This document shows, piece by piece, positions 4,832 through 30,501 of a stretch of DNA of 64,000 nt (the first letter of the stretch is position 1; each line of letters opens with the position of its first letter). The notes beneath the pieces are model-generated. The model was not told where the DNA came from. It made no database searches and saw only the letters and a list, made by a program, of their open reading frames with translations. The DNA is taken from positions 124,001 to 188,000 of the forward strand of contig CAMVKH010000004.1 of assembly GCA_947168065.1 (NCBI GenBank). Direction: 5' to 3'. Made by a program: the position numbers and the translations under genes. The DNA is from an uncultured Bacteroidales bacterium. Lineage in GTDB: Bacteria; Bacteroidota; Bacteroidia; Bacteroidales; UBA932.

Positions 4832-5251
4832 ATGAAACACGCAATCCTTCAATGGCTTCCCGCGCTGATGCTGCTGCTCGCAGCCACAGCCGCCTACGGC
4901 CAGCGCATCACCAACGCCAATTACCAGACCGTCGCCTACATCAAGTCGGACGGCACCATCCAGGACGCCTCCTACCGTACCGTCGGCTATATCAAATCTG
5001 ACGGCACCGTCCAGGACGGCTCCTACCGTACCATCGGTCACCTGAAAAGCGACGGCACCATCCAGGACAGTTCCTACCGCACCGTCGGCCACATCAAGGA
5101 CGACGGCACCGTCCAGGACAGCTCCTATCGCACCATCGGCCACGTCAAGAAAGACGGCACCGTCCAGGACGCCTCCTACCGCACCATCGGCTACGCCCGC
5201 GACATCCCCCTCCGCTGGGCCGCTTTCTTCTTCTTTTTCAGTGCGAACTGA
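4832..5251 (+). CDS. Exported 17-residue repeat protein (5-fold beta-flower type)
   Basis: This 139-residue protein has a signal peptide (about residues 1-23). It then has five perfect 17-residue repeats of the pattern SYRTVGYIKSDGTVQDx, starting at residues 30, 47, 64, 81 and 98, with a sixth partial unit at 115. The end is hydrophobic and aromatic (RWAAFFFFFSAN). The repeats resemble the small Bacteroidales family named 5-fold beta-flower protein, in which each repeat would supply one beta-blade of a ring. The function is unknown. The gene stands alone between its own promoter and a strong terminator. The alternating T/I and V/I residues suggest recent internal duplication. Confidence 0.75.
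   Translation: MKHAILQWLPALMLLLAATAAYGQRITNANYQTVAYIKSDGTIQDASYRTVGYIKSDGTVQDGSYRTIGHLKSDGTIQDSSYRTVGHIKDDGTVQDSSYRTIGHVKKDGTVQDASYRTIGYARDIPLRWAAFFFFFSAN
4919..5191 (+). repeat. 51-bp in-frame tandem repeat array
   Basis: Five full copies and one partial copy of a 51-bp unit encode the 17-residue repeats of the protein at 4832. The copies are close in DNA sequence, for example the shared core GACGGCACC(A/G)TCCAGGAC. They could expand or contract by slippage or recombination. Confidence 0.85.
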
Positions 5252-5254
5252 AAA

Positions 5255-5286
5255 GAAAGGGACGAACCTCACAGTTCGTCCCTTTC
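5255..5286. terminator. Strong hairpin terminator, probably bidirectional
   Basis: A perfect 13-bp stem (GAAAGGGACGAAC paired with GTTCGTCCCTTTC) has a 6-nt loop and starts 4 nt after the stop codon of the repeat protein. Short A/T runs lie on both sides, so it could also end transcripts of the RND operon arriving from the other direction. Confidence 0.85.
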
Positions 5287-5378: not shown

Positions 5379-8300
5379 TCATTGTTTGTCCGGATTCGTT
5401 TTCCTCCCCGGCATCCAGGCCGGGAGGAAGAAGATCAAGGCAATGAGGGAGAAGGCCAGGCCACCGATGGTGCCGAGGGCGAAGGCGTACCAGAAGACTT
5501 CGTCGGGGCCGTCGAGGAGGAAAGGGATCAGGCCCAGGGCAGTGGAGAGGACGGTCAGGAGCGTCGGGACGATCTTGTGGTTGAATGCGCGCACGAACAA
5601 ACGGCGGCCCTCTGTCTGCAGCCGCCATTCCTGAACGATGTAGATGCCGGCGTTGACGACCAGGCCGGCGAGCATGATCAGTGCGGCGAAGCCACCCTGG
5701 TCGAAGGGGCTGCCCGTGATGGCGAAGATGAGGAAGCAGCCGATGAAGGATAGGGGGATCAGGCCGATGATGGCCAACGGCAGCAGGAGGGACTCGAAGA
5801 GGATGGAACAGACGAAATAGATGATGGCAATTACCAGCAGGATGAGCAGCACATTCTTCCCTTTGTCGTCATTCCAGCTGTACTGGGTTTTCTCGGCATG
5901 ATAGCCAACGGGGAGAATTTCTTTATTGAGGCGTTCGACCTCGGCGTCAATGACTTTTTGCGCAAGGTTGGCGTTGCCGATGAATTCCCAGGCAACGGTC
6001 AGGGCGTATTGATGGTCGAGGCGGTGGATATCGTTGCCGCTGTGGCGGCGCTCGATGGTCCCGATGTCGGTGAAACGCAAATGCCGGCCTCCTACATCAA
6101 GGTATTCGTTCCTCAGGTTCCAAACGTCGAACGAAGTGCGGCGATCGGATACCAGATCTACGCTCCGGATTTCATCGTCCACGGTAACGGTTCCCACTTG
6201 TGCCGAAAACAGAGGATCGCGCAAGGTAACATAAGCATCCGCCCGGGAAAGTCCATGCGAGGCAAGCGCATCGGAGTCCCATACCAGGACAAACTCATCT
6301 GTAGAGAGCGTACTCCCCCATCCGACTTCTCCGTAGATGTCAGGCTCGCTGACGCGCGGGTTACGGGCAAGTCGTTCCACGGATGCGCGGCAATACCGGT
6401 AGAGGTCGTCGTAATTATAGCCTGTTACGACGATGCGCTGCCCCTTGTAGGAGGCCGCCATCACGTTGTTGCTGAAACTCTGGTCGTTGATGCCATAGAC
6501 ACTCCAGGAGGCGCCGCCAAGGTCGGCGGCCTTGGAGATAACGCGGCCCTTGAGTTCCACCGGAAAAGAAGTCTTCTCTACCTCCGGCTTGAAATCCACC
6601 ACGATGGAAGCGTTGCTGTGACTGGTTACGGAAGTACGGAAGGACTCTATCTCTTCGAATTGTGCGAGATAGTTCTCCATGGCGAGCACCACTTCGTTGA
6701 GTTGTGCCGTCGTGCACCCGTCAGGCAATGAGGCTCGAATATAGAGCGACGGGCGCTCCGTATCGCGGTAAAAGTTGCTGTGGCTACGGCGCAGGAACAG
6801 TCCGATGCTGCCACCGAGCGTCCGGTCGAGTGTCCGGCGCAAAGGATCTTTCATCACCGTATCGGGCAGTTGGCCGAACGGGAGGCCAAAGGCCAGGACC
6901 ACGAGAACGATGGTGGCCCAGCGCCAGCGGCGGGCCAATGCGATATAGCGGCGATACCATCCGTTCCAGCGGACAGTCCGCCGCCTGGCACGCAAGCTGC
7001 GCACTCGCTGCTTTTCGCGCATTTTCAGCTTATCGACCAATGCTGGAATCAGGAGCATCGCCACGGGGAGGCTTACTGCGAGATTGACCATCACAACAGC
7101 CGCAAAGTCAGTGAAACCTTGGCGCTGACCTTCCGGCAGCAGAAAGACGACCGACAAAGCGCCGATAGTGGTCAGTTGTGCGGCCAGCAGGGCGAGGAAA
7201 ACCCTGCGGTTGCGGTAATACCCGTAGTGGGCCACCATCACGATGACCGTGTCGATAAGGATACCAAGTGAGACCGTGATGCCGGCCATGGACCACAGGT
7301 GTATCTCCAAGCCAAAAAGGACGTAAAAGATGAAGGAGATGAGAAGGTTGGCGGCCAGACCTGCTACCACGACGAGCAGATAGCGGAGATTGCGGGTCGT
7401 CAGCAGGACGAAGATCAGGAGAATGGCCACGGAAAGCAGCGTGCGCCGCAGGATCTTGCTGATCTCGCCGCGAAGATACTCAGAGCTGTCATAGGTCACG
7501 GTGGCGGCGAAGCGCTCGGGGAACGAGGCGGAAAGTTCCGTCATCCGGGCTTTTACGGCATCGCAGACAGCGAGGTTGTTCACGCCTTTTTCGGGATAGA
7601 CGGTCAGGTTGATGGTGTTCAGGCCGTTGATGCGGTAGTAGCGCTCGGGCACGCGCTCGCGGTCCGTGATGCGGGCCACGTCACCCAGCCGTACGATGCG
7701 ACCGCCGACATTTCCCACGGGCAGCGTTTCGAGCCGTTCCGCATCGGCACCATAGCGCAGCGTCACGCCGACGCCTCCTGCCGTACCCACGACGTCGGCC
7801 TCGCGCAGCGCCGCAGCGAGGGCCTGCTGCAGGTCGGACGACGTCAGGCCCGCGGCCCTGAGCCGGTCGGCATTGAAGGCCACCTCGCGGTACAAGGGAG
7901 TTGCACCTGAAAGGACGATGCTGCCGACACCCGGAAGTACCGATAGTTCATCGATGATGCTGCCCTGCACATAGCGTTCGATCTGCCCCGAAGGCAGGTC
8001 GGCGTTGACGGTGTAGGTCAGGATACTCTGGACATCGCCGCCCGTAGAGGACCCGGAAACGGACGGGTAGCTCACGCCGGAAGGGAATCGGTCGAAGCTT
8101 TGCCGGATGAGCGTGGAGAGTTCGAAACGCACACGCTCCAGCTGTCGTTTGTCCTTGACTTCAAGCGTAACGCTGCCGCTGCCTTTGCGCGAGACGCTCC
8201 GCACGCTTCCTACACCCTCTATCGACGAGGCGAGTCCTTCGACAACCTGGGTAACCTCGCTTTCGATGAGTTTTGCCGAGGCCCCGTTCCAGGCGTACGA

Positions 8301-8426
8301 GACCACGAGGCTCCCTTTCTTCTCGGTGGGAGTATATTGCAGCGACAACAGCGGAATCATCGCGGCGCCCACGACGGACAGCACCACGAAGACCAGGATT
8401 ACGGAGAAGGCGGGCAGGCGTTTCAT
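5379..8426 (-). CDS. RND efflux permease, second of a tandem pair
   Basis: This 1015-residue inner-membrane pump belongs to the AcrB/HAE1-type RND family. Features seen are the N-terminal TM helix, the porter region starting after SLQYTPTEKKGS, a central block of helices (near LSVAILLIFVLLTT), and the C-terminal helices near AGLVVNAGIYIVQEW. TM4 reads GILIDTVIVM, so one of the two proton-relay acids is kept and the second position is Thr. It is more divergent than its upstream partner, with which it overlaps by 4 nt (ATGA). Two different permeases in one operon suggest a heteromeric trimer like MdtBC. It is the last gene of the long minus-strand array, 93 nt before a hairpin terminator. Confidence 0.93.
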   Translation of the reverse strand: MKRLPAFSVILVFVVLSVVGAAMIPLLSLQYTPTEKKGSLVVSYAWNGASAKLIESEVTQVVEGLASSIEGVGSVRSVSRKGSGSVTLEVKDKRQLERVRFELSTLIRQSFDRFPSGVSYPSVSGSSTGGDVQSILTYTVNADLPSGQIERYVQGSIIDELSVLPGVGSIVLSGATPLYREVAFNADRLRAAGLTSSDLQQALAAALREADVVGTAGGVGVTLRYGADAERLETLPVGNVGGRIVRLGDVARITDRERVPERYYRINGLNTINLTVYPEKGVNNLAVCDAVKARMTELSASFPERFAATVTYDSSEYLRGEISKILRRTLLSVAILLIFVLLTTRNLRYLLVVVAGLAANLLISFIFYVLFGLEIHLWSMAGITVSLGILIDTVIVMVAHYGYYRNRRVFLALLAAQLTTIGALSVVFLLPEGQRQGFTDFAAVVMVNLAVSLPVAMLLIPALVDKLKMREKQRVRSLRARRRTVRWNGWYRRYIALARRWRWATIVLVVLAFGLPFGQLPDTVMKDPLRRTLDRTLGGSIGLFLRRSHSNFYRDTERPSLYIRASLPDGCTTAQLNEVVLAMENYLAQFEEIESFRTSVTSHSNASIVVDFKPEVEKTSFPVELKGRVISKAADLGGASWSVYGINDQSFSNNVMAASYKGQRIVVTGYNYDDLYRYCRASVERLARNPRVSEPDIYGEVGWGSTLSTDEFVLVWDSDALASHGLSRADAYVTLRDPLFSAQVGTVTVDDEIRSVDLVSDRRTSFDVWNLRNEYLDVGGRHLRFTDIGTIERRHSGNDIHRLDHQYALTVAWEFIGNANLAQKVIDAEVERLNKEILPVGYHAEKTQYSWNDDKGKNVLLILLVIAIIYFVCSILFESLLLPLAIIGLIPLSFIGCFLIFAITGSPFDQGGFAALIMLAGLVVNAGIYIVQEWRLQTEGRRLFVRAFNHKIVPTLLTVLSTALGLIPFLLDGPDEVFWYAFALGTIGGLAFSLIALIFFLPAWMPGRKTNPDKQ

Positions 8427-11400
8427 CGGACGGCTGGCTTCTCTTTCCGGCGATAGAGTTCGTAGTAGAAGAGCGGAACGAAGAGCAGGCTCACCAGCGT
8501 ACCGACCACCATGCCGCCGATCAGGGCGACGGAGAGAGGGAACTGCAGGTCTGCGCCCATCGTGCCATGGATGAGGAAGGGCGCAATGGCGCCGATGGTC
8601 GTAAGGCTCGTCATCAGGATGGGCTTCAGACGCCGCTGCCCGCCCACGAGGATGGCACGCAGCAGCGGCATTCCCTCCCGACGCAGGCGATTGATGGTGT
8701 CAACCTTCAGGATGGAGTCGTTGATGACGATGCCGGCCATCACCACGATGCCGATGAGCGACATCAGGTTGATGCTGCTGCCGGCCACCCGGAGGGCCAG
8801 CAGGGCGCCGAAAATATCGACGGCCACTTCTGAAAGGATGATCAGCGGCTGCGAAAGCGATTCAAACTGTGCGGCCAGGATGAAGAAAAGCAGCAGCAGC
8901 GCCACCAGCAGTACAAGAGTAAGTTCTCGGATCATCGCCCGGCTCTGGTACCAGGTGCCGGTGTAGCGCACTTCAAAGCCGCCGTTGCTGCGGACGGCCC
9001 GGTCCAGGGCCTTTTCGATGGAAGATATCTGTTTGCCGTCAGCCTCGATGCCAAGGGGATAGTAGTTTCCTTCCCGCCCCGAAACGATGCAGCTCAGGTC
9101 GCGGCTGCGCCGTTCCTGAAGGAGGTAAGACAGGGGAATGGAGACACTGTCCCGGCCGGTCACCTGCAGCGCAAGCAGATCGGAAGTCCGTCCGCCGGAC
9201 TGGCCGCCCGTTACGATGACCGGGACCTGGGATGAGCCGGAACGGATGGTCAGAAGTGTCCGTTCGTGCGTGGCGCGGCTGAGGGCGGCATGGACCGAAC
9301 TGAGTTCGACACCGTAGAGCGCCAGCTTTTCGGGATCCGCGAAAAGCACCACCATCTCCTGCCAGGGCACGGCTTCGAGCCGCAAGTCGGGACGTTCGCT
9401 CCGTATCCGGTCGATCAGTCCGTTGAGCCGGTCGGGATCGGGCACGGTCCCGTCGCTGCTGCGCAGCTGCGCCACAAGCGCAGGTCCATCGCCCGTGAAG
9501 ACGAGATTGAAAGGATTGGCGGCTTCGGAGAAGGCATAGGAAGCTTCGGGCCATTGTCCTTCCAGATGAGCGGCCAGCGCCGTTTCAAGTTTGGCCCGGG
9601 CCATGGGTGAACGTGCCTTGAAATACAACCGGGCTCCGTCGGGAGCGATGTCTCCGCTATGGCCCAGGATGAAGTCCTGCCGGCCGGCGAGCAGGCTCCA
9701 CTCCGCAATTTCCCGGGACAGGTCTTCGGGCAGACTCTCCAGCAGCGAGCGGGCACGCGCATCATTTTCAGGAAGGGTGAGCGGCGTATTCCAGGCAATG
9801 TCGAGCAGCGCGTCGTCGTGGGTCAAAGGCGGGAAGGTACGTTTCTCGAGCGTAACGGCCAGGATGGCGGCGGCGGCCATCATCCCGAAGAAGATGGCCC
9901 ATGCAGCCTTCTGATGGCGCAGCACCCAGCCCAGGGCCGACTCATACCAGCGCTCATGCACAGGTGTGCGACGGGCCTTTTCAGTCTCTGCATCTTGCCG
10001 GCGATAGAACAGGACATAGTAAACCGGCAGCACGAATATCGATACGGCGAGCGATGTGACGAGTGTCACCACCACGGCCATGGCCTGGTCGTAGAACAGT
10101 GCTCCGGCTACGCCGCTCAGGAAGATCAGCGGCACGAAGACCGAGCAGGTGGTGAGCACCGAACTGACCATCGGGGCTATGACCTCGCGCGTAGCGCCTA
10201 CGGCAGCATCTTTCAATCCGGCGCCCCGCAGCCGCCACTGCGTGATGTTGTCGATGACGATGATGGAGTTGTCCACCATCATGCCGATGCCCAGGATCAG
10301 ACCCGAGAGTGAGATGATGTTGATGCCCACGCCCATCAGGTACAGGAGAAGGAGCGAGGCGATGAGCGAAACCGGGATGGTGAGTGCCACCAGCAGCGGC
10401 GCACGCCACTGGCGCATGAACAGCAGCAGTACGAGTACAGCCAGCAATGCACCCACGAGGATGTTCGTCTTGAGATTGTCGATCGAGTAGTCGAGCAGTT
10501 CGGTCTGGTTGCGCGTAACCGTGATCTGCAGTTCAGGATACTCATTCCCGAACTGCCGGAGTTGGGCTTCAAGGTTCCGCTTGAGCGCTGCCATCTGTGC
10601 ATCGGACTGTTTGATGACGGCCATGGTCACGGCCCGCTCGCCGCTGCTGCGGACCAGTCCGGCCGCATCGGCCGGGACGAGTGTCACGGCCGCAAGGTCG
10701 CCGAGTCGATAAACGCGGCCTCCTATGCCCAGACGCACGTCTTCGATGTCTGCTGCACTTCGCAGCTCCGCATCGAAGCGGACATTCCACTGGTAGTGTC
10801 CGTCGCGGATGGTGAGGTTTCCCAACGAGAGGTTGGCGCCGTTGATGGCTCTTTCCAGCGATTCGGGTCCGATGCCCAATGCGTCGAGACGGTTCCGGTC
10901 TGGTTCTACCAGGACGGCCGATCCCAGCAGGCCGCTGACATCGACCATCGCCACTTCCGGTATCTGCTCCACCCTGCGGACGAGGACTTCGCGTACGAAG
11001 CGGCTCAGTTCGATGAAACGCTCATCGGACACTTCGCCGGCCGACACATCGAGGAAAAAGGCCGGGATGTCCGTCGCGCTGGCGCGGACGACCTTCGGGC
11101 GCTCCGTCCCCTCGGGCAGGGAGCGAAGCGCCCTGTCGATGCGTTCATTGGTCTCCACGTAGTTGAATCCGGCGTCACTTCCGTGGGTGAAGGTCAGCAC
11201 GATCGTCGCCCCGTCGTTCTTTGCTTCGCAGCGGATGTCCTGCAGAGAAGGAAGTTGCAGCAGTTCCCTGCGAAGGGGCTGTACCAGCGCCAGGTCCACT
11301 TCCCGGGCGGAAGCCCCGGGCAGTGCGGCCTGCACCGTGATGCGCGGCACGTCGATATCGGGCATCAACGACACCGGCAGCCTCCCGACCGAGACCATGC

Positions 11401-11467
11401 CGACGATGAGCACGGCAACAAGTGTCATCGTCACAGCCACAGGACGTTCTATGAGGCGGCGCAGCAT
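8423..11467 (-). CDS. RND efflux permease, first of a tandem pair
   Basis: This 1014-residue RND permease has the canonical HAE1 start (RPVAVTMTLVAVLIVG) and the periplasmic entry motif PDIDVPRITVQAALPGAS. TM4 is GMMVDNSIIVIDN, with the proton-relay Asp kept and Asn next to it. The C-terminal block is GIVVMAGIVINDSILKVD. It is close in length to typical pumps (about 1,010-1,050 residues). It follows the adaptor gene by 3 nt and overlaps the second permease gene by 4 nt. The substrate cannot be read from the sequence. The unusual setting among NVEALA peptide, propeller and redoxin genes raises the possibility of a non-drug cargo. Confidence 0.95.
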   Translation of the reverse strand: MLRRLIERPVAVTMTLVAVLIVGMVSVGRLPVSLMPDIDVPRITVQAALPGASAREVDLALVQPLRRELLQLPSLQDIRCEAKNDGATIVLTFTHGSDAGFNYVETNERIDRALRSLPEGTERPKVVRASATDIPAFFLDVSAGEVSDERFIELSRFVREVLVRRVEQIPEVAMVDVSGLLGSAVLVEPDRNRLDALGIGPESLERAINGANLSLGNLTIRDGHYQWNVRFDAELRSAADIEDVRLGIGGRVYRLGDLAAVTLVPADAAGLVRSSGERAVTMAVIKQSDAQMAALKRNLEAQLRQFGNEYPELQITVTRNQTELLDYSIDNLKTNILVGALLAVLVLLLFMRQWRAPLLVALTIPVSLIASLLLLYLMGVGINIISLSGLILGIGMMVDNSIIVIDNITQWRLRGAGLKDAAVGATREVIAPMVSSVLTTCSVFVPLIFLSGVAGALFYDQAMAVVVTLVTSLAVSIFVLPVYYVLFYRRQDAETEKARRTPVHERWYESALGWVLRHQKAAWAIFFGMMAAAAILAVTLEKRTFPPLTHDDALLDIAWNTPLTLPENDARARSLLESLPEDLSREIAEWSLLAGRQDFILGHSGDIAPDGARLYFKARSPMARAKLETALAAHLEGQWPEASYAFSEAANPFNLVFTGDGPALVAQLRSSDGTVPDPDRLNGLIDRIRSERPDLRLEAVPWQEMVVLFADPEKLALYGVELSSVHAALSRATHERTLLTIRSGSSQVPVIVTGGQSGGRTSDLLALQVTGRDSVSIPLSYLLQERRSRDLSCIVSGREGNYYPLGIEADGKQISSIEKALDRAVRSNGGFEVRYTGTWYQSRAMIRELTLVLLVALLLLFFILAAQFESLSQPLIILSEVAVDIFGALLALRVAGSSINLMSLIGIVVMAGIVINDSILKVDTINRLRREGMPLLRAILVGGQRRLKPILMTSLTTIGAIAPFLIHGTMGADLQFPLSVALIGGMVVGTLVSLLFVPLFYYELYRRKEKPAVR

Positions 11468-11470
11468 AGC

Positions 11471-12544
11471 TTAATCGTGCTGGCGGATTTCAACGGCCGA
11501 GCCGTCGGCCAGGTTGATGTTGCCGGAGGTGATGACGATGGCTCCCTCATGGACTTCGGTACGTTTGCGCTCACAGCCGGTAACAGCATGATGCGTGGTA
11601 TTGCTCCCAACTATGTCAACGTATAGCCACTGGGCTTTCATCGCCGTGGTGTCGAGGGTGAAGATCACATCGTAGCCATCGCGCATGACGACGGCACTTT
11701 TCGGCACTGCCAATTGCAGTGTGCCTTCACTCTGGATGTACAACTTGACATTCATGCCTTCCACCAAACCTCTGGCACCGCGCACGGAGGCCACGACCTC
11801 TACCTGTCCTTTGGCATCGACGAAGGGGTTGATTTCCCGGATGCGTCCTTCATAACGGACCTCCGGCTCTATGAACGGGGATACTGTCACGCTCCGGCCC
11901 ACCGCGATGGCAGGAAGTTCAGACTCCAGCAAAGGGAAGCGCACGTCGAACGTACCATCATCGATGACCACGCAGACCGTACCGGAGGCCTGCTCCCACG
12001 GCTTGACCTTCAAATTAGCCACCACACCTGAAAACGGTGCACGAAGCACGGCGCCGCGGAGATTCAGTTCCGCAGTACGGACAGCCAGTTCCGCCGCCGC
12101 ATAGCCCGAACGGATACGGGCAGCATCCCGAAGGTCACCGGGGATCTGTGTCGTATCGCTGCCGTAGCCATAGCTCACCAACCGGTCGAGATAGTCGAGC
12201 CGCGACCGTTCCAGACTCTGCCGGGCATTCGCAAGCGCCAGCGTCAGCGCTTCCGTGTCAAGCTCGGCGATAGGACTCCCCTTCTGCACCCGGCTGCCAT
12301 TATGGACATAGACCTTCGCAACGGTGCCGGAAGCGGCAAAGGCGAGCTCTGCACGCCTCGCCCCTTCCAGCACTCCGTTGCTCACGATTTCCCGCGAGAA
12401 CAACGTTCGCCGGAGCGTCATCGTATCAACCAGATTCTTCTCGGCAACCGGCACGGCGCGCGCCGCATCCGCGTCATCGGCCTTCCCCTTGCAGGAAAAC
12501 AGCAAAGGAAGCAGAATTGCTACCAGCAGGACTTTTCTTTTCAT
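11471..12544 (-). CDS. RND periplasmic adaptor lipoprotein (HlyD/AcrA type)
   Basis: This 357-residue membrane-fusion protein has a lipoprotein signal (PLLFSCKGK, Cys18). The lipoyl/barrel-sandwich halves are visible as ASGTVAKVYVHNGSRVQKG and RAPFSGVVANLKVKPWEQ, separated by an alpha-helical hairpin rich in Ala and Arg. A beta-barrel domain follows. The adaptor links the inner-membrane permeases to the TolC channel. It lies 15 nt downstream of a propeller lipoprotein gene, not directly next to tolC as in most RND operons. This is the main sign that extra genes have entered the operon. Confidence 0.93.
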   Translation of the reverse strand: MKRKVLLVAILLPLLFSCKGKADDADAARAVPVAEKNLVDTMTLRRTLFSREIVSNGVLEGARRAELAFAASGTVAKVYVHNGSRVQKGSPIAELDTEALTLALANARQSLERSRLDYLDRLVSYGYGSDTTQIPGDLRDAARIRSGYAAAELAVRTAELNLRGAVLRAPFSGVVANLKVKPWEQASGTVCVVIDDGTFDVRFPLLESELPAIAVGRSVTVSPFIEPEVRYEGRIREINPFVDAKGQVEVVASVRGARGLVEGMNVKLYIQSEGTLQLAVPKSAVVMRDGYDVIFTLDTTAMKAQWLYVDIVGSNTTHHAVTGCERKRTEVHEGAIVITSGNINLADGSAVEIRQHD

Positions 12545-12559
12545 CGCGGTCAGAGATGT

Positions 12560-13513
12560 TCAGTTCAGAAAATGATCGCAATACACCAATCGAGGACCCT
12601 CTTCCGGGGTAATATCAATCGCATACAGAGTGTCTTTTTCAAAGTCATAGGTGAACCATGACACATCTGTATCCAGCTGAAACCGCCGCAATAGTTTACC
12701 ATTCCAGTTGAAAAGGAGAATATCCCGATCGGCGAATTTGGCCAGAATGTGTTTTTCGTCGGAACAAGCATTCCCGGAAAAACAGAAAGGACGGGCGTAA
12801 GGTTTTCTTTCAACGCCTTCCAGGGGCAACAACACCTCTTTGAGAATCTTCCCTTCCGACGAAACAATCCGCAAATAGGGATCGAAACCATAAAAGGCCG
12901 CAAACTTGTCCTTGTCAGGATGCACGGTTAGCGTTTTATTGAAACGCATGGGCATCATATCGTTGGGATCTGTTTCAAAATCCGGGTAACTGCAGATGTA
13001 GTCACCGACTCCGTCCTTGTTGGTGAGTCTGTACTCAAAGGAAGGATCCATGCTCATGTTCAAGTAACCCGTCGACAGCTCTTTCACCCCATTTAGAGGT
13101 TCAGCACCGATATTGATGTCTTGTGTTGAAATGCAGCGGAAACTTCCGGTATCATCCCATTCGTAGCTTTTTTTTACGCCGCCAAGATCAACGAAAGAAA
13201 AGCCGTTGGTAGTTCCGACAAAACTTCTTACATCGGGCCGAAGAACCTCTCCCGGCCCCCTTCCCCTTGTTCCTTCATAGAATCCTTCTCCTGTCAGAGG
13301 TAGCGGATACACTACAAATGGATAATCCGTATTGTCTTGATATATGACAATTTTGTCGGATATCGCAAGAATACACCTTGGATTGACAAGAGAAGGATTA
13401 CATACCACCGTCTGCATTCCTCTCTCTTCTAAATCACAAAGTTTCCCCTCCTGCTTCGTACACGAAGAAAGCAGGAGAATCAGGGAACAAGACAGTAAAA
13501 TTAAATTACGCAT
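12560..13513 (-). CDS. BF3164-type 6-bladed beta-propeller lipoprotein (copy 1)
   Basis: The ATG at 13513 is chosen because it gives a lipoprotein signal (MRNLILLSCSLILLLSSC). A longer reading from 13555 would bury it. The mature part (about 300 residues) has the repeated beta-strand pattern of TolB-like propellers of the BF3164 family, with blade-like stretches such as GEGFYEGTRGRGPGEVLRPD, where the RGRGPGE motif is diagnostic. The function is unknown. Its start overlaps the end of the NVEALA gene by 13 nt, so the two are likely coupled. The gene is visibly less GC-rich than the adaptor gene downstream. A second copy of this peptide/propeller pair lies at 15926-17259. Confidence 0.8.
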   Translation of the reverse strand: MRNLILLSCSLILLLSSCTKQEGKLCDLEERGMQTVVCNPSLVNPRCILAISDKIVIYQDNTDYPFVVYPLPLTGEGFYEGTRGRGPGEVLRPDVRSFVGTTNGFSFVDLGGVKKSYEWDDTGSFRCISTQDINIGAEPLNGVKELSTGYLNMSMDPSFEYRLTNKDGVGDYICSYPDFETDPNDMMPMRFNKTLTVHPDKDKFAAFYGFDPYLRIVSSEGKILKEVLLPLEGVERKPYARPFCFSGNACSDEKHILAKFADRDILLFNWNGKLLRRFQLDTDVSWFTYDFEKDTLYAIDITPEEGPRLVYCDHFLN

Positions 13514-13773
13514 GTTCCACGGTTTGAACAAGAAGTAACAGAAACAATTACGCATGGATCACACTTATAGACATCTATCCACAATGGATCGAACATGCTT
13601 ATACCCTCAACTGTATGAAAGCATTTGATTGAATTTCTAGGATTTGAGACAGGATCAGCAAGCGCTTCGGCATTCGCCTTCATCAAATACGCATCGCTGT
13701 GAGACGCTTTCATGAGCGATAAGGCCGCGGAAAGAAACAATACGGCGATTACCAGAATCAGTTTTCTTTTCAT
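13501..13773 (-). CDS. NVEALA-family small exported peptide (copy 1)
   Basis: This 90-residue product has a hydrophobic leader, then MKANAEALADP near residues 32-42, which resembles the NVEALA motif of a Bacteroidales family of exported peptides. The C-terminal part has five Cys, including KCDPC, and would suit disulfides or cofactor binding. The family role is not established. Its end overlaps the start of the propeller lipoprotein by 13 nt, and a CxxC redoxin lipoprotein gene lies immediately upstream. This combination of Cys-rich peptide, redoxin and propeller suggests a secreted, oxidatively folded product. Confidence 0.72.
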   Translation of the reverse strand: MKRKLILVIAVLFLSAALSLMKASHSDAYLMKANAEALADPVSNPRNSIKCFHTVEGISMFDPLWIDVYKCDPCVIVSVTSCSNRGTCVI

Positions 13774-13786
13774 GATAATGAATTGA

Positions 13787-14347
13787 TTAATGGTTATTAT
13801 TATTTATTGACAGGAGAGTTTTCGTAAAGACAGACATCAAAGCTTTGCTTGATAACGGATTGCCGACCATGACGGGATGCTTGTCATACAACAAGAAAGA
13901 ATGAAACCGCTGGTCTGTCGGGATAAGCGTTGCCGGCATCAAACCGTCAAAATCAACATATACCGGAAAGCCTGTTTCCCTTTCTGAAAGAGCCCGAATG
14001 ACATGAGAGACATCTTCGGGCTTTGGAGAAAAGAGTACGACAACTTGAAAGGTCTTGAGCGAATCAGCCATTTGAAACATTGGTTTCTTATCTGGCAGAT
14101 GATTAATCGCGCAATCGGTACATTCGTCTTTACCGTGAAAGTAAACAATGGTCGGCAGGGAAAGATCGATCTGACAAAAGCTGCTGTTTTGCCCTTCGAT
14201 CTTGAGCAAGTTATCGGGCAGGTCGATTGACGACTCCTCGAACGATCGGAGCATCTGGATAACCTTCCTTGTTTCAATGTCACTCTTGCAACCCATGATG
14301 AATGTCGGGAGCATTAGCAATAGCCCTATGTAGATATGACGTTTCAT
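13787..14347 (-). CDS. Thioredoxin-fold lipoprotein with CxxC
   Basis: This 186-residue protein has a lipoprotein signal (MLPTFIMGCKS, Cys20). A thioredoxin-like core follows, with a predicted strand PTIVYFHGKDECTDC; CTDC is a possible redox-active pair, and the His and Lys upstream are typical of Bacteroidales redoxins. It lacks the full TlpA/ResA signature, so the exact family is uncertain. It lies 1 nt downstream of the tolC-like gene and 13 nt upstream of the NVEALA peptide gene. A role in keeping or shuffling the peptide's cysteines is an inference from position. Confidence 0.65.
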   Translation of the reverse strand: MKRHIYIGLLLMLPTFIMGCKSDIETRKVIQMLRSFEESSIDLPDNLLKIEGQNSSFCQIDLSLPTIVYFHGKDECTDCAINHLPDKKPMFQMADSLKTFQVVVLFSPKPEDVSHVIRALSERETGFPVYVDFDGLMPATLIPTDQRFHSFLLYDKHPVMVGNPLSSKALMSVFTKTLLSINNNNH

Positions 14348-14348
14348 T

Positions 14349-15854
14349 TTACTTTATTTTACCCAACGATTCGAAATTTGCTTCGATGTTGGTTTGATTC
14401 AAATAATCATAAAGCGTCATCTGGCGGATGGCGTAGTAGTACTGCCACCAGGCAGCGAGGTCCTGGAGGTAGCGGATGGCAGCGCTCTCCATCTCCGACT
14501 GGGCGGTGTTGAGTTCCGTGACACCCGTCGACCCCGCGAGAAAGCGCTCCCGGGCAGCAGCATAGCGGTCCCGGCCAACGGCTTCCGCCTTGCGTGACAC
14601 CTCGCACTGCCCGCCCTGACGGTTGAACTGCATGACTTTCAGCGCGACGTTCTCACGCAGCGAAGCAAGCGCCTGACTGATCTGTGCCTCGACCACCTCG
14701 GCCTGAGACTGCGCCACCTTCACGCGCCCTTTACCGACGCCCCAGTCGAGGATGGGCAGCGAGAGCGTCAATCCCACGACCTCCTGGTCAAGTGGATTGC
14801 GGTAGGCTGCAGGCAGGTCGCGGCCAACCTGGTTCAGGCCGAAGCGGGCAGACAGGTTGGCCGATGGCCCAGCGGCAGCCTTGGCCTGCGCCACGGCACG
14901 CTGAGCGTTGAGCGTCCGGACTTCGTACCCGAGGAGCGTGGACGAATGATCAAAGACCTTCTCCAGCACATCGTCGTAGGGAAGCATCAGCGCCTCTTCG
15001 GCTTCCGGCGCGTCGAGCGAGAGCGTGACAGTCTCATTATATCCAAGATAGTTACGAAGGCGCATCATCGCCACCTGCTCCGTCACGGAGCAATCGCTGA
15101 TCGAGAGGTCGTCGTTGAGGAGCTTGAGCTCCAGTTGCAGCACCTCGTCCCTTGAGAGACTGCCGAGTTTGAAGCGTTCCTGCGCAATAGCGTACAACTG
15201 TGCCGTATTCTCGCGGCTGGCCTTTGCGGTCTCCAGACGCTGCTGCGCCAGCAGCAGGTCGAAGAAGTACCCCGCCACCGTAACGGTAATCGCCTCCATC
15301 GCTTCCAGGTACTCGCGCTTGGCCAACTCGTACTTGCGCGGCTCGATCTTCTTCTCCCAGCGGAAGCTGTTGTACGCACTGATAGGTTGGCTCAGGCTCA
15401 CATACACAGGACTGGAGCTCCAGGTAAGGCGGCTCTCAGGAGAGAACTGGTCGAGACGCCCCAGGCCCGTCGTGACGGACACGGTACCGCCCGTCCACGT
15501 GATATTCTGGTTGAGCGAGAGCGACAGGCTGTTATTCAGCGTGTTGTTACCCACATAGTTGAAGGCTCCCGTCGTCGCATCCTGCAGGGCAACCAGCGAG
15601 CGGTTGTACTGCCCCAGCGATCCCGAAAGTCGCAGTGCCGGCAGCTGCTCGGCCTGAAACGCCCGATACTCCCAATACCCCGTCAGGAAGGTATGCCGCG
15701 CCAGCAGGGCCGCCGGCGACTGGTCGTGGGCTGTGGCGATGGCGTCAGAAAGGGAAAGGGTAAGAAGATGATTATTACTGGTTTCTTGAGATTGCCCATT
15801 TGCTTGTCCGAGGAAAAGCAAGATCATCCCAAAAAGCAAGTGCGTGCGTTTCAT
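14349..15854 (-). CDS. TolC-family outer-membrane efflux protein
   Basis: The start at 15854 is chosen because it opens with a signal peptide (MKRTHLLFGMILLFLGQANG) and lies downstream of a -7 box at 15903-15910. The product is about 501 residues. It has two related halves of long amphipathic helices and the family motifs LSLSDAIATAHDQSPA and VVGLTLSLPILDWG. It forms the outer-membrane channel for the two RND permeases. It is GC-rich like the pump genes, but low-GC peptide and propeller genes flank it on both sides, so the operon looks assembled from parts of different origin. Confidence 0.93.
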   Translation of the reverse strand: MKRTHLLFGMILLFLGQANGQSQETSNNHLLTLSLSDAIATAHDQSPAALLARHTFLTGYWEYRAFQAEQLPALRLSGSLGQYNRSLVALQDATTGAFNYVGNNTLNNSLSLSLNQNITWTGGTVSVTTGLGRLDQFSPESRLTWSSSPVYVSLSQPISAYNSFRWEKKIEPRKYELAKREYLEAMEAITVTVAGYFFDLLLAQQRLETAKASRENTAQLYAIAQERFKLGSLSRDEVLQLELKLLNDDLSISDCSVTEQVAMMRLRNYLGYNETVTLSLDAPEAEEALMLPYDDVLEKVFDHSSTLLGYEVRTLNAQRAVAQAKAAAGPSANLSARFGLNQVGRDLPAAYRNPLDQEVVGLTLSLPILDWGVGKGRVKVAQSQAEVVEAQISQALASLRENVALKVMQFNRQGGQCEVSRKAEAVGRDRYAAARERFLAGSTGVTELNTAQSEMESAAIRYLQDLAAWWQYYYAIRQMTLYDYLNQTNIEANFESLGKIK

Positions 15855-15902
15855 AGAGACCAATCGGATAAAGCATAGTACACGAAAAATAAAGGCCAAG
15901 AA

Positions 15903-15910
15903 CAAAGTTA
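15903..15910 (-). promoter_or_regulatory. -7 box for the tolC-like gene
   Basis: On the minus strand TAACTTTG fits TAnnTTTG and lies 48 nt before the chosen start at 15854, in the gap after the second propeller gene. It would give the efflux genes their own promoter. No -33 TTG is seen. Confidence 0.5.
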
Positions 15911-15925
15911 AGCTATTTTTCCGGG

Positions 15926-16972
15926 TTATAAAGAGAAAGAATACAACTCACCATTCATGGTGATTCCGGTCAAAGTTTCCCCATTAGACGACACAATGAA
16001 GCTTGTCAGCGGTTCCTTGATTCGCAGGGCGGAAGATACTTTCCCTTTCAGATCCAAAACATAAAGAATCTCCTCAAATCTGCCCGATCTGACCGCATCC
16101 TGGTCCAGTGTGAGATAATAAATCCGTTTATCCTTGATTTGTATCCAAACGCAATACTCCTCACTCGCGGTTACGCCCTGGCTCAATTTGTCGTTTATCT
16201 GTGCATCTGTTTCCTTGTTATCAAAAGCCACTGAGATATTCTCTCCTTCCCTGTTGAAAATGAAAAGTCTCGGGAAAGAGGCCATGCCCATCAGCAGGTA
16301 TTTCCCATCTTCAGAAACGGCATTCACAGCAAAATAATCAGACGCATCAACAATATGACCATTATCACCAAACGGCTGCACCTTCTCAATTTCTCCGGAT
16401 TCGTCTGATATGACCCAAGAAACTGTCTGATGGTCTTCGAACACATAGCAGAACAAATCCGAGGAGCTGGAAAGAGCGTACATGGTGCTTTTAGGCAAAG
16501 GTCTCCGATAGGCAATCACATCGCTTCCGCCAGAAAGGCACTGCGTAAGATTTACACAAGCCAGTTCTTGTGAAGAAAGACTGTATATGAGAATCTCTGT
16601 GTCACCAGCCTCATTTATCCTGCTGCCGGAAAAACCGGCATCAAGCATTTCATTCGGCCCTCTGCCGCGTTGAATGATACCCTTCGTTTCGCCTGTAGAC
16701 AGATCAATCCATGTGAAACAATAAGCTCCTGCCATCATGTGGAGGAGGGCACAGCCGCCACCAATATCGTAAATACCCGCCGCCCCGATGAAACTGTTTC
16801 CATTCAGGAGAGGGTGTATCTGGCTCTCATCCAATTCCGAAACAGAATAGCTGCTGTTAACGACAATCCTTGCTCCCTCGACAATCTTTGACACTTCTTT
16901 CTGGCACGAAACAGTGAAGAACTGGAGGAAAACGGAAATAATGACAATTGTCGGCAATGAAAACTTTTTCAT
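15926..16972 (-). CDS. BF3164-type 6-bladed beta-propeller lipoprotein (copy 2)
   Basis: This 348-residue protein has a lipoprotein signal (FLQFFTVSCQK, Cys23) and the blade pattern of the BF3164 family, including the diagnostic GIIQRGRGPNEMLDA. It is a paralogue of the product at 12560 in type and length, though not closely similar in sequence. It lies 8 nt downstream of the second NVEALA-like peptide gene, repeating the peptide/propeller gene order. Function is unknown. It is AT-richer than the pump genes. Confidence 0.8.
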   Translation of the reverse strand: MKKFSLPTIVIISVFLQFFTVSCQKEVSKIVEGARIVVNSSYSVSELDESQIHPLLNGNSFIGAAGIYDIGGGCALLHMMAGAYCFTWIDLSTGETKGIIQRGRGPNEMLDAGFSGSRINEAGDTEILIYSLSSQELACVNLTQCLSGGSDVIAYRRPLPKSTMYALSSSSDLFCYVFEDHQTVSWVISDESGEIEKVQPFGDNGHIVDASDYFAVNAVSEDGKYLLMGMASFPRLFIFNREGENISVAFDNKETDAQINDKLSQGVTASEEYCVWIQIKDKRIYYLTLDQDAVRSGRFEEILYVLDLKGKVSSALRIKEPLTSFIVSSNGETLTGITMNGELYSFSL

Positions 16973-16980
16973 AACTCTTT

Positions 16981-17259
16981 TTATTCATCTCCAGGCTCTT
17001 CTTCGATAGAAACTGAGCAATAACCACCCTCGGTAATACCCTTACCCCACGCGTATTCGCAATGGATACATATAAGTACGCGTTTAAAAAGACTGAAGTC
17101 ATATTGATTAAAACAAATTGAGGAGCTGTCACGAAGTACTATCAAGGCTTTAGCGTTTTCTTTTACGAACGAATCCTTGTCCATGTTGTTTGCAATCAGA
17201 AAAAAGGGGAATGCAGAAAACAGTACTGCCACGAATAGTGAAATGATTAATCTTTTCAT
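16981..17259 (-). CDS. NVEALA-like small exported peptide (copy 2)
   Basis: This 92-residue product has a hydrophobic signal (residues 1-24), then VKENAKALIV, a degenerate form of the NVEALA motif, and a Cys-containing C-terminal part (SICF, LICIHC, GYC). The size, motif position and neighbouring propeller gene match copy 1 at 13501. It is the first gene of the minus-strand array, and its upstream region is cut by mobile-element ends at 17308 and 17358. It may therefore have lost its native promoter. Confidence 0.6.
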   Translation of the reverse strand: MKRLIISLFVAVLFSAFPFFLIANNMDKDSFVKENAKALIVLRDSSSICFNQYDFSLFKRVLICIHCEYAWGKGITEGGYCSVSIEEEPGDE

Positions 17260-17327: not shown

Positions 17328-17357
17328 TAGTTAAAAGTTAAAGGTGAATTCTAATTA

Positions 17358-18413
17358 GAAGTGCAACACACTTCAAAAGTCAAAATTAAATAATTGTTTA
17401 CAATATTCCAATGGTGTCCTGTAACCCAATGACTTACGGGGCCTGTGGTTTAGTTTCCATTCGATCTCGGCAAGCATCTCATCAGTCAGCTCGCTGAAGT
17501 CCGTACCTTTCGGGATGTATTGGCGTATCAGCCCGTTTGTGTTTTCGTTTGCGCCACGCTCCCAGGAGTGGTACGGACGGGCAAAGTAGAACTCGGCATC
17601 GAGTCCCTTCGCAATCTCCTTGTGGCGTGCAAATTCTTTTCCGTTGTCAGCCGTTATCGTGTGTATTTTGTCCTTATAGGGCAGCAGCGCTTCGATTGCC
17701 GTGCTGGCCAGCGGGGTGGCTTCTTTCCCAGCAAGCCTGCGGATCAGCACCAAATGCGTGCACCGGTCGTTTGTTGTCATGATAGCACCCTTGTGGTTCC
17801 TGCCAATCATCGTGTCTATCTCAAAGTCTCCGAAACGCTTCTTCTCAGCTACAACCGACGGCCTCAGCGATATGTCAACCCGGACCTGGATGATTCCCCT
17901 GGATCTGTATAGGTTGTCTCGTCTTCGCTTCCGTCGCCCGCCATGCCTGAGGCTACGCGCCAACTCGTCATAGCCCTGGCGCTTCTCCTGCCAGATCCAC
18001 CGGTAGATCGTCTCCGCACATACCATCTCTTCCCCTTTCAACCGGAACCGGCCGCAGATTTGCTCCGGACTGTACTGGCCGTAGATGATGAACCTTCGCA
18101 CGGTTCGTTTCCTCTCGTCGGTGAACTTCAGGTAGTGTCGCCTGGTCTTCATCCTCCTTTCGTACTTCTTTTGGGCCAGTTGCCATCAATACCGATGGTA
18201 GCACGCCTGTCGCAGTTCCTGCGAATCTCACGGCTCACCGTACCTGTACTGACCCCGATTACTTCTCCTATCTCCCTTAGGCTCATTGGTCTCTGCAGCA
18301 ACGCCTCAATCGTATATCGTTGCTCCCTTGTCAGATGCTTGTATCCCATTCTTTGTCGCTTTTCTGGTTATGACAGTAAAGATATACTGTCAAGCTTCAA
18401 AGCGTTGCACTTC
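17358..18413 (-). mobile_element. IS30-family insertion sequence with inverted ends
   Basis: The frameshifted transposase is bracketed by GAAGTGCAAC at 17358-17367 and its exact inverse at 18404-18413. A further TTCTA match lies at equal spacing outside both (17349-17353 and 18418-18422), so the true ends may be slightly wider. I could not identify a target-site duplication. The 18414-18564 stretch next to it is AT-rich with no gene seen. Confidence 0.75.
17373..18349 (-). pseudogene. IS30-family transposase, frameshifted
   Basis: The N-terminal helix-turn-helix part (18349-18149, 66 codons) and the DDE catalytic part (17373-18152) are in different frames. The second frame is open upstream of its ATG and encodes WQLAQKKYERR, which continues the normal IS30 sequence. 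One base therefore appears lost near 18186. The catalytic part keeps DFEIDTMIG, TADNGKEFARH and WERGANENTNGL. The internal ATG overlaps the first stop (ATGA) and is preceded by GGAGG, so separate translation of the catalytic part cannot be excluded. As a single transposase it is likely inactive. Confidence 0.8.
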
Positions 18414-18564
18414 AGAGTAGAATCCAGCTAGTGTGGCTCAAGTCCAAAAGTGCAAGTTTAGGCATAGATGTTCCCGAGTTTCTGCGTTAACCAGTATGCC
18501 TGCTCCAGAATCGAATACTAATAAAAGAGTATCTTATGGGAAGGATACACATTTATTGATATAA

Positions 18565-21510: not shown

Positions 21511-21903
21511 TCATAGAAGGATAAACAACCCATAGAATTGCGTTCCTCCCATTGTGATAAACTCTATTCGATAGATGCCAGAACCGTTAGTTACGGGAAT
21601 AATACAACTACCGAAATTAGAATCAATTACCGTATTGACACTAGCATTAATGGATAGATTCGTAAGTTGAATCGTTACCTCTCCTATATTAGAAAGGAAA
21701 GCAACTTCAATACAAGATAATGATTGGTACAGAGTAACTGTGAGAGGAACGATACTTCTACCGGCTCCGTTTTCTGAAGTATATTCTTCTATTCTTACCT
21801 CAGTCCCTTCCTCTTCATCGGGGATGTTTTGAGCATAAGAATGAAAGGGGAAAACAAACATGGCTGTGACTACCAGCATCAGTGATAAAACATACTTTTT
21901 CAT
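21511..21903 (-). CDS. DUF3244 small exported protein
   Basis: This 130-residue protein has a signal peptide (to about residue 24, SYA). The mature part resembles DUF3244: a Pro-containing RSIVPLTVTLYQS segment, then beta strands around CIEVAFLSNIGEVTIQLTN and GIYRIEF. It would form a small Ig-like beta-sandwich. Members of this family are often encoded beside TPR transducer lipoproteins in Bacteroidales, as here. The function is not known. The gene is AT-rich and lies downstream of a -7 box at 21920. Confidence 0.72.
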   Translation of the reverse strand: MKKYVLSLMLVVTAMFVFPFHSYAQNIPDEEEGTEVRIEEYTSENGAGRSIVPLTVTLYQSLSCIEVAFLSNIGEVTIQLTNLSINASVNTVIDSNFGSCIIPVTNGSGIYRIEFITMGGTQFYGLFILL

Positions 21904-22132: not shown

Positions 22133-23824
22133 TTACGAAAGCATTCTCAAGAACACCTCTTTATATTGAGAATCCGAGTGCACAATTAATTGCTTGAGTC
22201 GATGTCTTTCAACATACACATTGTGCTTCTGATAACCGGGAATAATAGCGCAAATCGTAGAAGAATCGTAACCGGCAAATAGATAACTGACAAGCCTATA
22301 ATAACGCGGCTTTTTATTAGGGAAAGCTTCTCGAAAATGAGCCATCACATTGTCGAAAGTCTCGTTAAGCAACATCTCAAATTCGTTTAGATTCTTGTCA
22401 TCCATTCCGATGCTTCGAATGGCTCTCTTCAACTCCTTGTATAGTTCATTGTCCCTATCCTCAGCGTGATAATATAATACCTCATTGATGCGGCCGATTT
22501 TACTGAAATGCGATTGGCATAGTTGAATATACTCCTCGCGGACAAAAGACTTTTCTTTTTCTAATTGGTTTACTTGGGCACTTAACTCTGAACAATTGGA
22601 ATTGAGCACAATGTACTCTTTCGATAAACTCTTGTAAGCATCTACCAACTGCTCCTTTTCCTGAATACTTCTATCTTTTCGAAGTCTGAACAATATCAAT
22701 AATACTATAATAATTGCTAACAATAGGGCAATTGAGCCCCAAGCAATGAAATGCTGTTTCTTTGCCAACCTCTTCGATTCCAAATTAACTTGCTCCAGAA
22801 AGTCTTTTTGGGCTTTAATCGTCGACTGCTTTAATGCAATTACAACATTCTCATCTTGAATTTCAAAGGCCTTATTTTGCAAGCGATATGCAGAAGCAAA
22901 ATCTCCAACGTATGCATCAGCAAGGCTTTTCCAATAAGAATAAGAAAGATATGCATCCCCTTGCTTAGCCTCAAGTTGCTTGAAAATCTGCTCAGATTGT
23001 TTTACCCTTCCCACTCGTAAAAGAGAGTAAGCATAAGCGCCCCAGGCATTCCTATTCCTTAATCTTCCCGTTGAAGTGATAACTTCTTCGAAAACACGGA
23101 CAGCCTGTTCATAGTCTTCTTTTGGCTTCACGAGACTTAGCGCATAACCGCATTGTAAAGAAGATCGAAGATTGGAATAGACGTCACCGTTCTTTATCAA
23201 ATCCCTATATAACGAATCGGCCTCCGAATATCTTTCCAGATTGTAATAATCATTAGCCATACACAGAAGAGCGGAATTCGCATTCGACGTGTCCTTCGCT
23301 TCAACAAAAAGCGAATAAGCCCTCTCCGTGTATTCTAATGCTTCTTCATGAAGATGCGTTTGACTGTAAATGGTCGAGATTGCGAGACATATTAACCCTT
23401 TGAAATCGACGTCTTTCGATGCTTCAGCATATTGCTCCGCTTTCATGAAAGAAATAATCGCCTCCGGGCGATCCCCAGCGTTCTGTTGAATCCTTCCCAG
23501 ATAATACCAAGCCTTCGCCCGACGGATGTCGGAAGGATGCCGGTCGTAGTACTCCACCGCCGGCATCACCACATTCACGTCGGTCGTGTCAATCCAGTTC
23601 TTGTCGAGGGCCATGGCGTAGAGCAGGGCGTAGTGGGCGCGGAGGCTGCGGGATGTGAGTGTTGCGGTGTCGATGGCGCGGATGGTGGCCAGGGCGCTGT
23701 CGGGACGCTGCTGAATGTATGTTTCTACGTCGTTGAGGGTTGCGGCTGTGTGGCGGCTGGAGCAGGAGGCGAGCAAAAGAGCAGCCACCGAAAACGATAT
23801 GACCGATAAATGAAGACGAAGCAT
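22133..23824 (-). CDS. TPR transducer lipoprotein with TM helix and coiled coil
   Basis: The start at 23824 is preferred because it yields a lipoprotein signal (SVAALLLASCSS) at normal distance. A start at 23842 would sit almost on the predicted transcription start. The product (about 563 residues) has several TPR units in its first 330 residues, a TM helix (WGSIALLLAIIIVLLILF), a coiled coil of about 60 residues, and a C-terminal region ending in a helix-turn-helix-like part (YDSSTICAIIPGYQKHNVYVERHRLKQ). Such proteins are typical of Bacteroidales and are thought to signal across the inner membrane. The first about 110 codons are GC-rich and the rest AT-rich, a sharp break near 23,480. Confidence 0.8.
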   Translation of the reverse strand: MLRLHLSVISFSVAALLLASCSSRHTAATLNDVETYIQQRPDSALATIRAIDTATLTSRSLRAHYALLYAMALDKNWIDTTDVNVVMPAVEYYDRHPSDIRRAKAWYYLGRIQQNAGDRPEAIISFMKAEQYAEASKDVDFKGLICLAISTIYSQTHLHEEALEYTERAYSLFVEAKDTSNANSALLCMANDYYNLERYSEADSLYRDLIKNGDVYSNLRSSLQCGYALSLVKPKEDYEQAVRVFEEVITSTGRLRNRNAWGAYAYSLLRVGRVKQSEQIFKQLEAKQGDAYLSYSYWKSLADAYVGDFASAYRLQNKAFEIQDENVVIALKQSTIKAQKDFLEQVNLESKRLAKKQHFIAWGSIALLLAIIIVLLILFRLRKDRSIQEKEQLVDAYKSLSKEYIVLNSNCSELSAQVNQLEKEKSFVREEYIQLCQSHFSKIGRINEVLYYHAEDRDNELYKELKRAIRSIGMDDKNLNEFEMLLNETFDNVMAHFREAFPNKKPRYYRLVSYLFAGYDSSTICAIIPGYQKHNVYVERHRLKQLIVHSDSQYKEVFLRMLS

Positions 23825-23851
23825 AATGTATAGCAGATGCATATTATATTA

Positions 23852-30384: not shown

Positions 30385-30449
30385 TCTGTTTTTGTACTTT
30401 TTGTCTTTTTTGGGGTTTTATGAGGATTGCATCGCTACGAATTATTGTT

Positions 30450-30457
30450 TAAATTTG
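30450..30457 (+). promoter_or_regulatory. -33/-7 promoter of the M64 peptidase gene
   Basis: TTG at 30427-30429, a 20-bp gap, then TAAATTTG at 30450-30457. This places transcription start downstream of the longest possible reading frame and supports a start codon at 30502 or 30496. Confidence 0.7.
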
Positions 30458-30501
30458 TCTTTGGATGCTTTTTCAATCTTAGCGGCATTCCCGAAATGGC
30501 C

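Follow-up and report, generated by a model that had tools for sequence, protein, structure and literature searches.

A nine-gene RND operon with two peptide-propeller pairs

We analysed a 64,000-nucleotide stretch of DNA (the window) from an uncultured Bacteroidales bacterium (contig CAMVKH010000004.1, positions 124,001 to 188,000; genome of 2.02 Mb, 77% complete) and focused on a minus-strand operon at positions 5379-17259 that interleaves the genes of a resistance-nodulation-division (RND) pump with those of small NVEALA-like peptides, propeller lipoproteins and a redoxin. An initial annotation, made from the sequence, had described nine such genes in one co-directional run, and this observation is confirmed, as all nine open reading frames (ORFs) of the window operon are present, uninterrupted and without internal stops. 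Read from 17259 down to 5379, the operon begins with NVEALA-like peptide 1 (16981..17259; 92 residues, with a hydrophobic N-terminal segment, an ENAKALI motif and four cysteines in the core) and propeller lipoprotein 1 (PROP1, 15926..16972; lipobox Cys23), followed by a TolC-family outer-membrane channel (14349..15854; OEP, E=6.5e-34; ORF open from 15905, ATG at about 15854) and a redoxin-like lipoprotein (RDX, 13787..14347; CTDC at residues 76-79). NVEALA-like peptide 2 (13501..13773; 90 residues, an NAEALA motif followed by D, five cysteines in the core) and propeller lipoprotein 2 (PROP2, 12560..13513; ORF open from 13555, likely ATG at about 13513) come next, so that the peptide/propeller pair is indeed present twice, and the run closes with a periplasmic adaptor lipoprotein (MFP, 11471..12544; RND_mfp at 119 bits for a cut-off of 94.9), RND permease 1 (RND1, 8423..11467; ACR_tran, E=2.5e-164) and RND permease 2 (RND2, 5379..8426; ACR_tran, E=9.9e-95), the anchor of our later searches. 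The gaps, annotated as at most about 20 nt, are mostly 1-15 nt, but the one between PROP1 and TolC measures about 71 nt with the ATG start of TolC and 20 nt if a TTG start is used; RND1 and RND2 overlap by 4 nt, and peptide 2 and PROP2 by about 13 nt. A terminator-like hairpin lies 3' of RND2 (5255..5286, minus strand), a consensus match only, and terminator-like sites in total were no commoner than in shuffles.

The tripartite set is encoded together, with ACR_tran permeases, an RND adaptor and a TolC-type channel all above the Pfam cut-offs, and MdtB is the best PDB match both of permease 1 and of the RND2 profile. Like the window, MdtABC-TolC has two tandem RND permease genes with an adaptor; the window differs by its peptide and propeller genes, which MdtABC to our knowledge lacks, and in two of three proton-relay residues. 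Taking the canonical relay, under the numbering we assume, to be two Asp in TM4 and a Lys in TM10, alignment to MdtB by eye showed the first Asp retained in RND1 and RND2, the second replaced by N (RND1) or T (RND2), and the Lys by N in both. Other RND families also depart at relay residues. The annotation had further pointed out that TolC, which ordinary RND operons keep next to the adaptor, is parted from it here; this holds in the window, but none of the other listed loci shows a peptide cassette separating TolC and adaptor; TolC lies next to the adaptor in L019, L020, L022 and L024, the four nearest relatives examined, and follows a permease in more distant ones (e.g. L026, L027 and flavobacterial loci).

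Identity of the small components

The smaller proteins of the window fall below the Pfam cut-offs or find no Pfam match. PROP2 reaches 14.9 of the required 29.2 bits for TolB_like (E=0.017) and PROP1 16.3 of 23.4 for DUF4221 (E=0.0078), RDX has no Pfam match, and for Pfam NVEALA (PF14055, cut-off 27 bits) peptide 2 scores 16 bits (E=0.0097) and peptide 1 gives no match, a scan of the window genome yielding no match at E<=0.001. However, when profiles were built without the window proteins (7 doubtful peptides being dropped from the peptide profile) and run against the 414 ORFs of the window, the window peptides, redoxin and propellers ranked first, with E values of 3e-8 (peptide 2), 5e-7 (peptide 1), 5e-32 (redoxin), 4e-33 (PROP2) and 3e-29 (PROP1). 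On the strength of these profiles from other loci, the predicted identities of the small parts can be regarded as secure. Moreover, our peptide profile finds exactly two matches in the window genome, both inside this operon. The window peptides have in common with Pfam NVEALA proteins a signal-like N-terminus, an NxEALA-type motif and a short Cys-rich tail, a layout that peptide 2 shows fully and peptide 1 with KALI for EALA; NVEALA members beside RND2 in other genomes exceed the Pfam cut-off, whereas the window's two do not.

In an alignment of 34 of the 82 listed propeller sequences together with the two of the window, 28 of 36 match TolB_like and 8 of 36 DUF5128 at E<=0.01, and the resulting profile matches NHL-repeat propellers in PDB (E=2e-17). 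Most aligned relatives thus match the BF3164/TolB_like/DUF5128 six-bladed propeller lipoproteins, the window's own two being divergent and below cut-off. As for the redoxin, which the annotation had cast as the folding factor of a disulfide-containing peptide, a CxxC is present in all 18 aligned redoxins, window RDX included, and in 47 of 53 RDX-labelled sequences when fragments are counted. The redoxin profile matches StoA (E=5.8e-9) and ResA (E=6e-6) in PDB. These findings speak for the proposed role; two further full-length members, L062_15 (L062:16100-16615, outside the alignment) and L060_06, are without CxxC. With the StoA/ResA/TlpA-type thiol-disulfide oxidoreductases the redoxin has in common the CxxC and a profile match over the core; it differs from them as a divergent lipoprotein family lacking a Pfam match.

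Recurrence of the gene set in relatives

Adaptor matches at E<=1e-20 were found in 14 of the 80 relatives searched; the three weakest (L032-L034, E 1e-22 to 1e-25) lack a labelled RND permease in their stretches and were excluded from every later count. RND2-type permeases, defined by a profile threshold alone (E<=1e-100, two best candidates per genome scored) and not by a tree, were found in 70 of the 393 Bacteroidales genomes; in the window's genus, 4 of 40 genomes have one. Named genomes hold at least 475 relatives, the best 80 of which span Bacteroidales and Flavobacteriia (a class assignment that partly rests on our assumption). Among these best 80 of at least 475 loci, 57 carry at least one of a propeller, a redoxin, an S26 signal peptidase or a Wzy_C-TPR protein, the individual labels being propeller 49, S26 22, redoxin 21, Wzy_C-TPR 14 (from a profile with two seeds that may also catch TPR-only proteins), DUF1573 8 and a TPR regulator 7. 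In the same loci tblastn detects RND1 in 67, TolC in 55 and the adaptor in 55, and ORF-based labelling in 59, 53 and 51, respectively. Since tblastn exceeds the ORF labels and many contigs are short, the ORF-based counts are lower bounds; the ORF caller misses genes in G+C-rich loci.

S26 signal peptidase genes and genes for Wzy_C (O-antigen-ligase-like) and TPR proteins lie inside pump cassettes at L019:4994-7227, L022:9666-10253 and L022:12180-13646; that the Wzy_C protein might act as an O-glycosyltransferase on the peptides is speculation. In five flavobacterial loci (L090, L091, L093, L102 and L105) a gene of 66-67 codons recurs directly after TolC, and L102 has five small genes with hydrophobic starts in tandem before one propeller.

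Association with the pump beyond chance

Stretches of up to 20 kb around RND2 in 20 genomes were compared with stretches around one RND outside this type in the same genomes. The control RND was hand-chosen, often the top match, another one being used where the top match lay near a contig edge and, in G120, without that reason, and several case and control stretches are short (L199, 3.4 kb) or lopsided. The family profiles had been trained on pump loci, among them loci of at least 7 of the 20 matched genomes. With these profiles, propeller genes were found near the pump in 11/20 RND2 stretches versus 1/20 controls (p=0.001), Wzy_C-TPR genes in 6/20 versus 0/20 (p=0.02), S26 genes in 5/20 versus 0/20 (p=0.05), and any of propeller, redoxin, S26 or Wzy_C-TPR in 15/20 versus 1/20. 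The training bias of these profiles is avoided by a test that uses Pfam only: TolB_like lies within 30 kb of 8 of 21 RND2 genes compared to 1 of 83 other RNDs (the 83 listed rows of at least 731 bits; p=6e-6), and within 10 kb of 4 of 21 compared to 1 of 83 (p=0.006). Three TolB_like rows that exceed the cut-off only in combination with neighbours were excluded from this count; one of these (G149:C5:16460) lies 18 kb from RND2.

The association extends to whole genomes. Pfam NVEALA occurs in 25 of 393 genomes (up to 15 best candidates per genome scored), 20 of which have RND2, compared to 50 of the 368 others (Fisher p=2e-12); by genus, the figures are 16 of 19 versus 36 of 186 (p=2e-8). As the genomes are related and the best candidates alone were scored, these p-values are indicative and absences are tentative. 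Of 52 NVEALA genes above cut-off, 28 are on the same contig as RND2 and 21, from 9 genomes, within 30 kb. As these nearby genes represent 9 of the 20 genomes that carry both, tight linkage accounts for the smaller part of the co-occurrence. The peptide profile, trained on pump loci, matches 26 of the 393 genomes (up to 13 best candidates per genome), and 22 of these also appear in the RND2 list. Within the window's genus it matches 3 of the 4 pump genomes and 0 of 36 pumpless ones; the fourth pump genome (G035) has a candidate peptide, L020_07, beside its pump that the profile misses.

The annotation had held that the association would be accidental if homologous operons in relatives never contained NVEALA or propeller genes; instead, it recurs in Bacteroidales and Flavobacteriia and beats matched controls. 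An ordinary drug-efflux operon with a chance insertion of unrelated mobile lipoprotein and peptide genes might be read from the insertion sequence (IS) elements beside the window copy, from the commonness of RND pumps and from the patchy distribution of the RND2 type in the genus, but recurrence in many genera against matched controls and a genome-level co-occurrence that holds also without close linkage strongly disfavour this explanation, leaving it very improbable. Chance neighbourhood is rejected on the controls and the genome-level co-occurrence combined, and the gene association is not a local accident.

A common leader followed by variable cysteine-rich cores

Across the labelled loci, 57 small genes with a hydrophobic N-terminus immediately precede a propeller gene; 18 of these belong to loci that had been retrieved because of NVEALA matches, some without a pump in the stretch. 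The typical peptide has a basic start, a hydrophobic stretch, a polar spacer (the cut position follows the most hydrophobic 12-mer at a median distance of 22 residues), xANVEALA and a short tail in which Gly, Cys, Ser and acidic residues abound, and several flavobacterial leaders end, by eye, in ANA, AFA, AVA or AQA. For comparison of the parts, leader and core were split by a regular expression that fits 39 of the 57 peptides, the 18 without a match being left out. All 39 split cores have at least two cysteines and 30 an even number; small-x-small residues stand at the cut in 32/39 and A-x-A in 23/39, both biased upward because small residues are in part written into the expression. Signal peptidase I classically recognises A-x-A, and this, taken with the S26 peptidases encoded in some loci, points to NVEALA as a possible leader-cleavage signal.

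In 19 within-locus pairs (14 from loci chosen for NVEALA matches, 10 from L215 alone) mean leader identity was 0.56 (0.51 without the motif), compared to 0.18 for the core, with a shuffled core baseline of 0.13; leader identity exceeded core identity in 18 of 19 pairs (17 of 19 without the motif), and the propellers of these pairs had a mean identity of 0.22. A fixed split of all 57 peptides likewise placed the N-terminus above the core in 20/25 pairs and 8/10 loci (p=0.02). Paralogous peptides thus have a common leader, often with an A-x-A-like end, followed by a near-random cysteine-rich core.

This pattern bears on the main rival to peptide export, in which the RND pump exports another cargo and is monitored or tuned by an envelope-stress or signalling module of peptide, propeller and redoxin, the peptides not being cargo themselves. 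Propellers and redoxin, all lipoproteins, could act as sensors or repair factors in the periplasm, a putative TPR membrane regulator lies upstream of the operon in the window and in G023, a genome of the same genus, and in some genomes NVEALA copies far outnumber RND2 copies (8 in G393 and 9 in G436, with one RND2 match each). Yet variable cores behind a common leader suit diverse cargo better than a conserved regulator, and the TPR regulator is no more frequent around the pump than around control RNDs (1/20 versus 1/20). We consider a sensing or tuning module unlikely, if still the foremost competitor.

Peptide and propeller might instead be a toxin or bacteriocin and its immunity protein, sharing an island with a self-protection pump while the peptide leaves by another exit route. 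The tandem, diverse peptide-propeller pairs, five of them in L215, would fit such an arrangement, and so would the weak correlation that core identities show with propeller identities within loci (rho 0.47, p 0.04, from 19 pairs that are not independent). Over all 39 pairs, however, core and propeller identities are uncorrelated (r=0.03, p=0.23), so that co-divergence of cognate peptides and propellers was rejected over all pairs and is weak within loci, and no other exporter is labelled in the loci, though only part of the unlabelled genes was examined. We regard the toxin/immunity explanation as distinctly improbable.

A candidate RND-driven peptide secretion system

The annotation had proposed that a disulfide-containing peptide is folded by the redoxin, held by the propeller and exported or sensed through the pump, a model that our results support in part, through the recurring gene association and the redoxin. 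On balance, the operon probably encodes a dedicated two-step peptide secretion system built on the RND pump. This reading is built on the observed gene content, its recurrence, the genome-wide co-occurrence, the near-universal CxxC and the common leader with its variable Cys-rich core; from these we infer that the pump may export the peptides. NVEALA-type precursors would cross the inner membrane via Sec, using the N-terminal hydrophobic segment, and would be cleaved at the A-x-A-like leader end (after NVEALA and before E, D or G), in some relatives plausibly by the locus-encoded signal peptidase. The membrane-anchored CxxC redoxin would then make or correct disulfides in the Cys-rich core, and the propeller lipoprotein would act on or receive the peptide as chaperone, receptor or immunity protein. 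Finally, the adaptor, RND1/RND2 and TolC would move the mature peptide from the periplasm to the outside, with RND1 and RND2 possibly forming a mixed trimer as in MdtBC, a kind of RND heterotrimer described as rare (PMC8277102).

The same order of events, Sec export, cleavage, periplasmic disulfide formation and then passage through MacAB-TolC to the outside, is given for the enterotoxin STII (PMC8277102), which offers a comparison for the presumed working mode of the window system. The two differ in that the motor of MacAB-TolC is a MacB-type ABC transporter, whereas that of the window would be a pair of RND permeases not of the MacB type, and in that the folding and propeller genes (and in some relatives a signal peptidase gene) travel with the window pump. 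More tentatively, and at less than even confidence, the operon may belong to an undescribed Bacteroidota pathway, a TolC-dependent exporter energised by RND permeases and equipped with a disulfide oxidoreductase and propellers of its own and, in many members, a signal peptidase, releasing a large, fast-diversifying Cys-rich NVEALA-type family with NVEALA as the leader-cleavage signal. In the open-licence literature (most subscription journals and preprints being outside this scope) we found neither a description of such a system nor the word NVEALA; BF3164 is named there in one phylogeny paper.

Several observations weigh against a peptide exporter. The tie between pump and peptide is at the level of genes, and the energy coupling is in question as both permeases lack two of three canonical relay residues. 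In the matched comparison redoxin (3/20 versus 0/20), DUF1573 (1 versus 0) and TPR regulator (1 versus 1) were not significant, and 5 of the 20 pump stretches have no labelled propeller, redoxin, S26 or Wzy_C-TPR gene, as have 23 of the 80 named loci, many of these stretches being short. RND2 was not matched in 5 of the 25 NVEALA genomes (two best candidates per genome scored), and at G204:C4:114066-126144 a pump outside the RND2 type likewise has both NVEALA and a TolB_like propeller no more than 10 kb away. The window locus itself is without a signal peptidase gene, the G023 signal peptidase finding in the window genome (77% complete) one partial, weak match elsewhere (E=5e-8). The window's two peptides are alike only to 0.38 in the leader and 0.24 in the core, and peptide 1 carries KALI instead of EALA; the predominance of loci chosen for NVEALA matches among the within-locus pairs and the lack of core-propeller co-divergence over all 39 pairs point the same way.

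RND pumps are mostly treated as exporters of drugs, metals and metabolites. If peptide export holds, a whole RND group would be peptide secretion machines tied to variable, leader-bearing Cys-rich peptides, and the uncharacterised NVEALA and propeller families would gain a testable role in gut and marine Bacteroidota, where bacteria might use the peptides to signal to, or to attack, one another.

A disrupted 5' part of the locus

As judged from the sequence upstream of the operon, the locus is larger than first stated and damaged at its 5' end. An element that we take to be IS30-like (17342..18429, minus strand; rve E=3.1e-6, below cut-off; inverted repeats 17342-17367/18404-18429) stops about 85 bp upstream of the operon's first ATG and is followed by a gene for an OLD-like ATPase (18565-20025, minus strand), whose best PADLOC match is ATPase-Toprim_I-B (E=2.7e-41), presumably retron-associated. 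Lying between two IS elements, this ATPase could be a defence gene carried along in the operon's disrupted 5' region. A DDE transposase (20186-21391) lies between the ATPase gene and that of an exported 130-residue protein (21511..21903, minus strand) which has no Pfam match and is 49% identical to L022_11, encoded shortly before the corresponding operon of G023. Next comes a putative TPR/DUF6377-like membrane regulator (22133..23842, minus strand; TPR_2 above and DUF6377 below cut-off) with 67% identity to a gene upstream of the G023 operon. Thus, two IS elements and the ATPase gene separate the window operon from the TPR regulator and the 130-residue protein, whereas in G023 their homologues are directly upstream of an operon of the same kind. 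The TPR protein is likely a regulator; as a general part of the system it was rejected, given its lack of enrichment over controls and its label in 7/80 loci, and it is retained solely as synteny between the window and G023.

The G023 cassette comprises a redoxin fragment, signal peptidase, peptide, propeller, redoxin, Wzy_C-TPR protein, peptide, propeller, TolC (in pieces) and adaptor. Its pump is itself in pieces on contigs C1 and C43 (L022/L023), one of which joins the start of the adaptor to the end of RND2 without RND1, by deletion or assembly error, while the other has the adaptor end, RND1 and RND2.

Other features of the window

Convergent with the end of RND2, a plus-strand gene at 4832-5251 encodes a small exported protein with 5-fold beta-flower repeats. 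Farther away, a plus-strand gene at 30427-33183 encodes a protein with Big_2, BspA-type leucine-rich repeats and an IgA-type M64 peptidase domain, and at 35210-39338 the gene of a CHASE2-domain protein (minus strand) stands beside, and divergent from, that of a TPR-CHAT protein (plus strand) that we take to be caspase-like.

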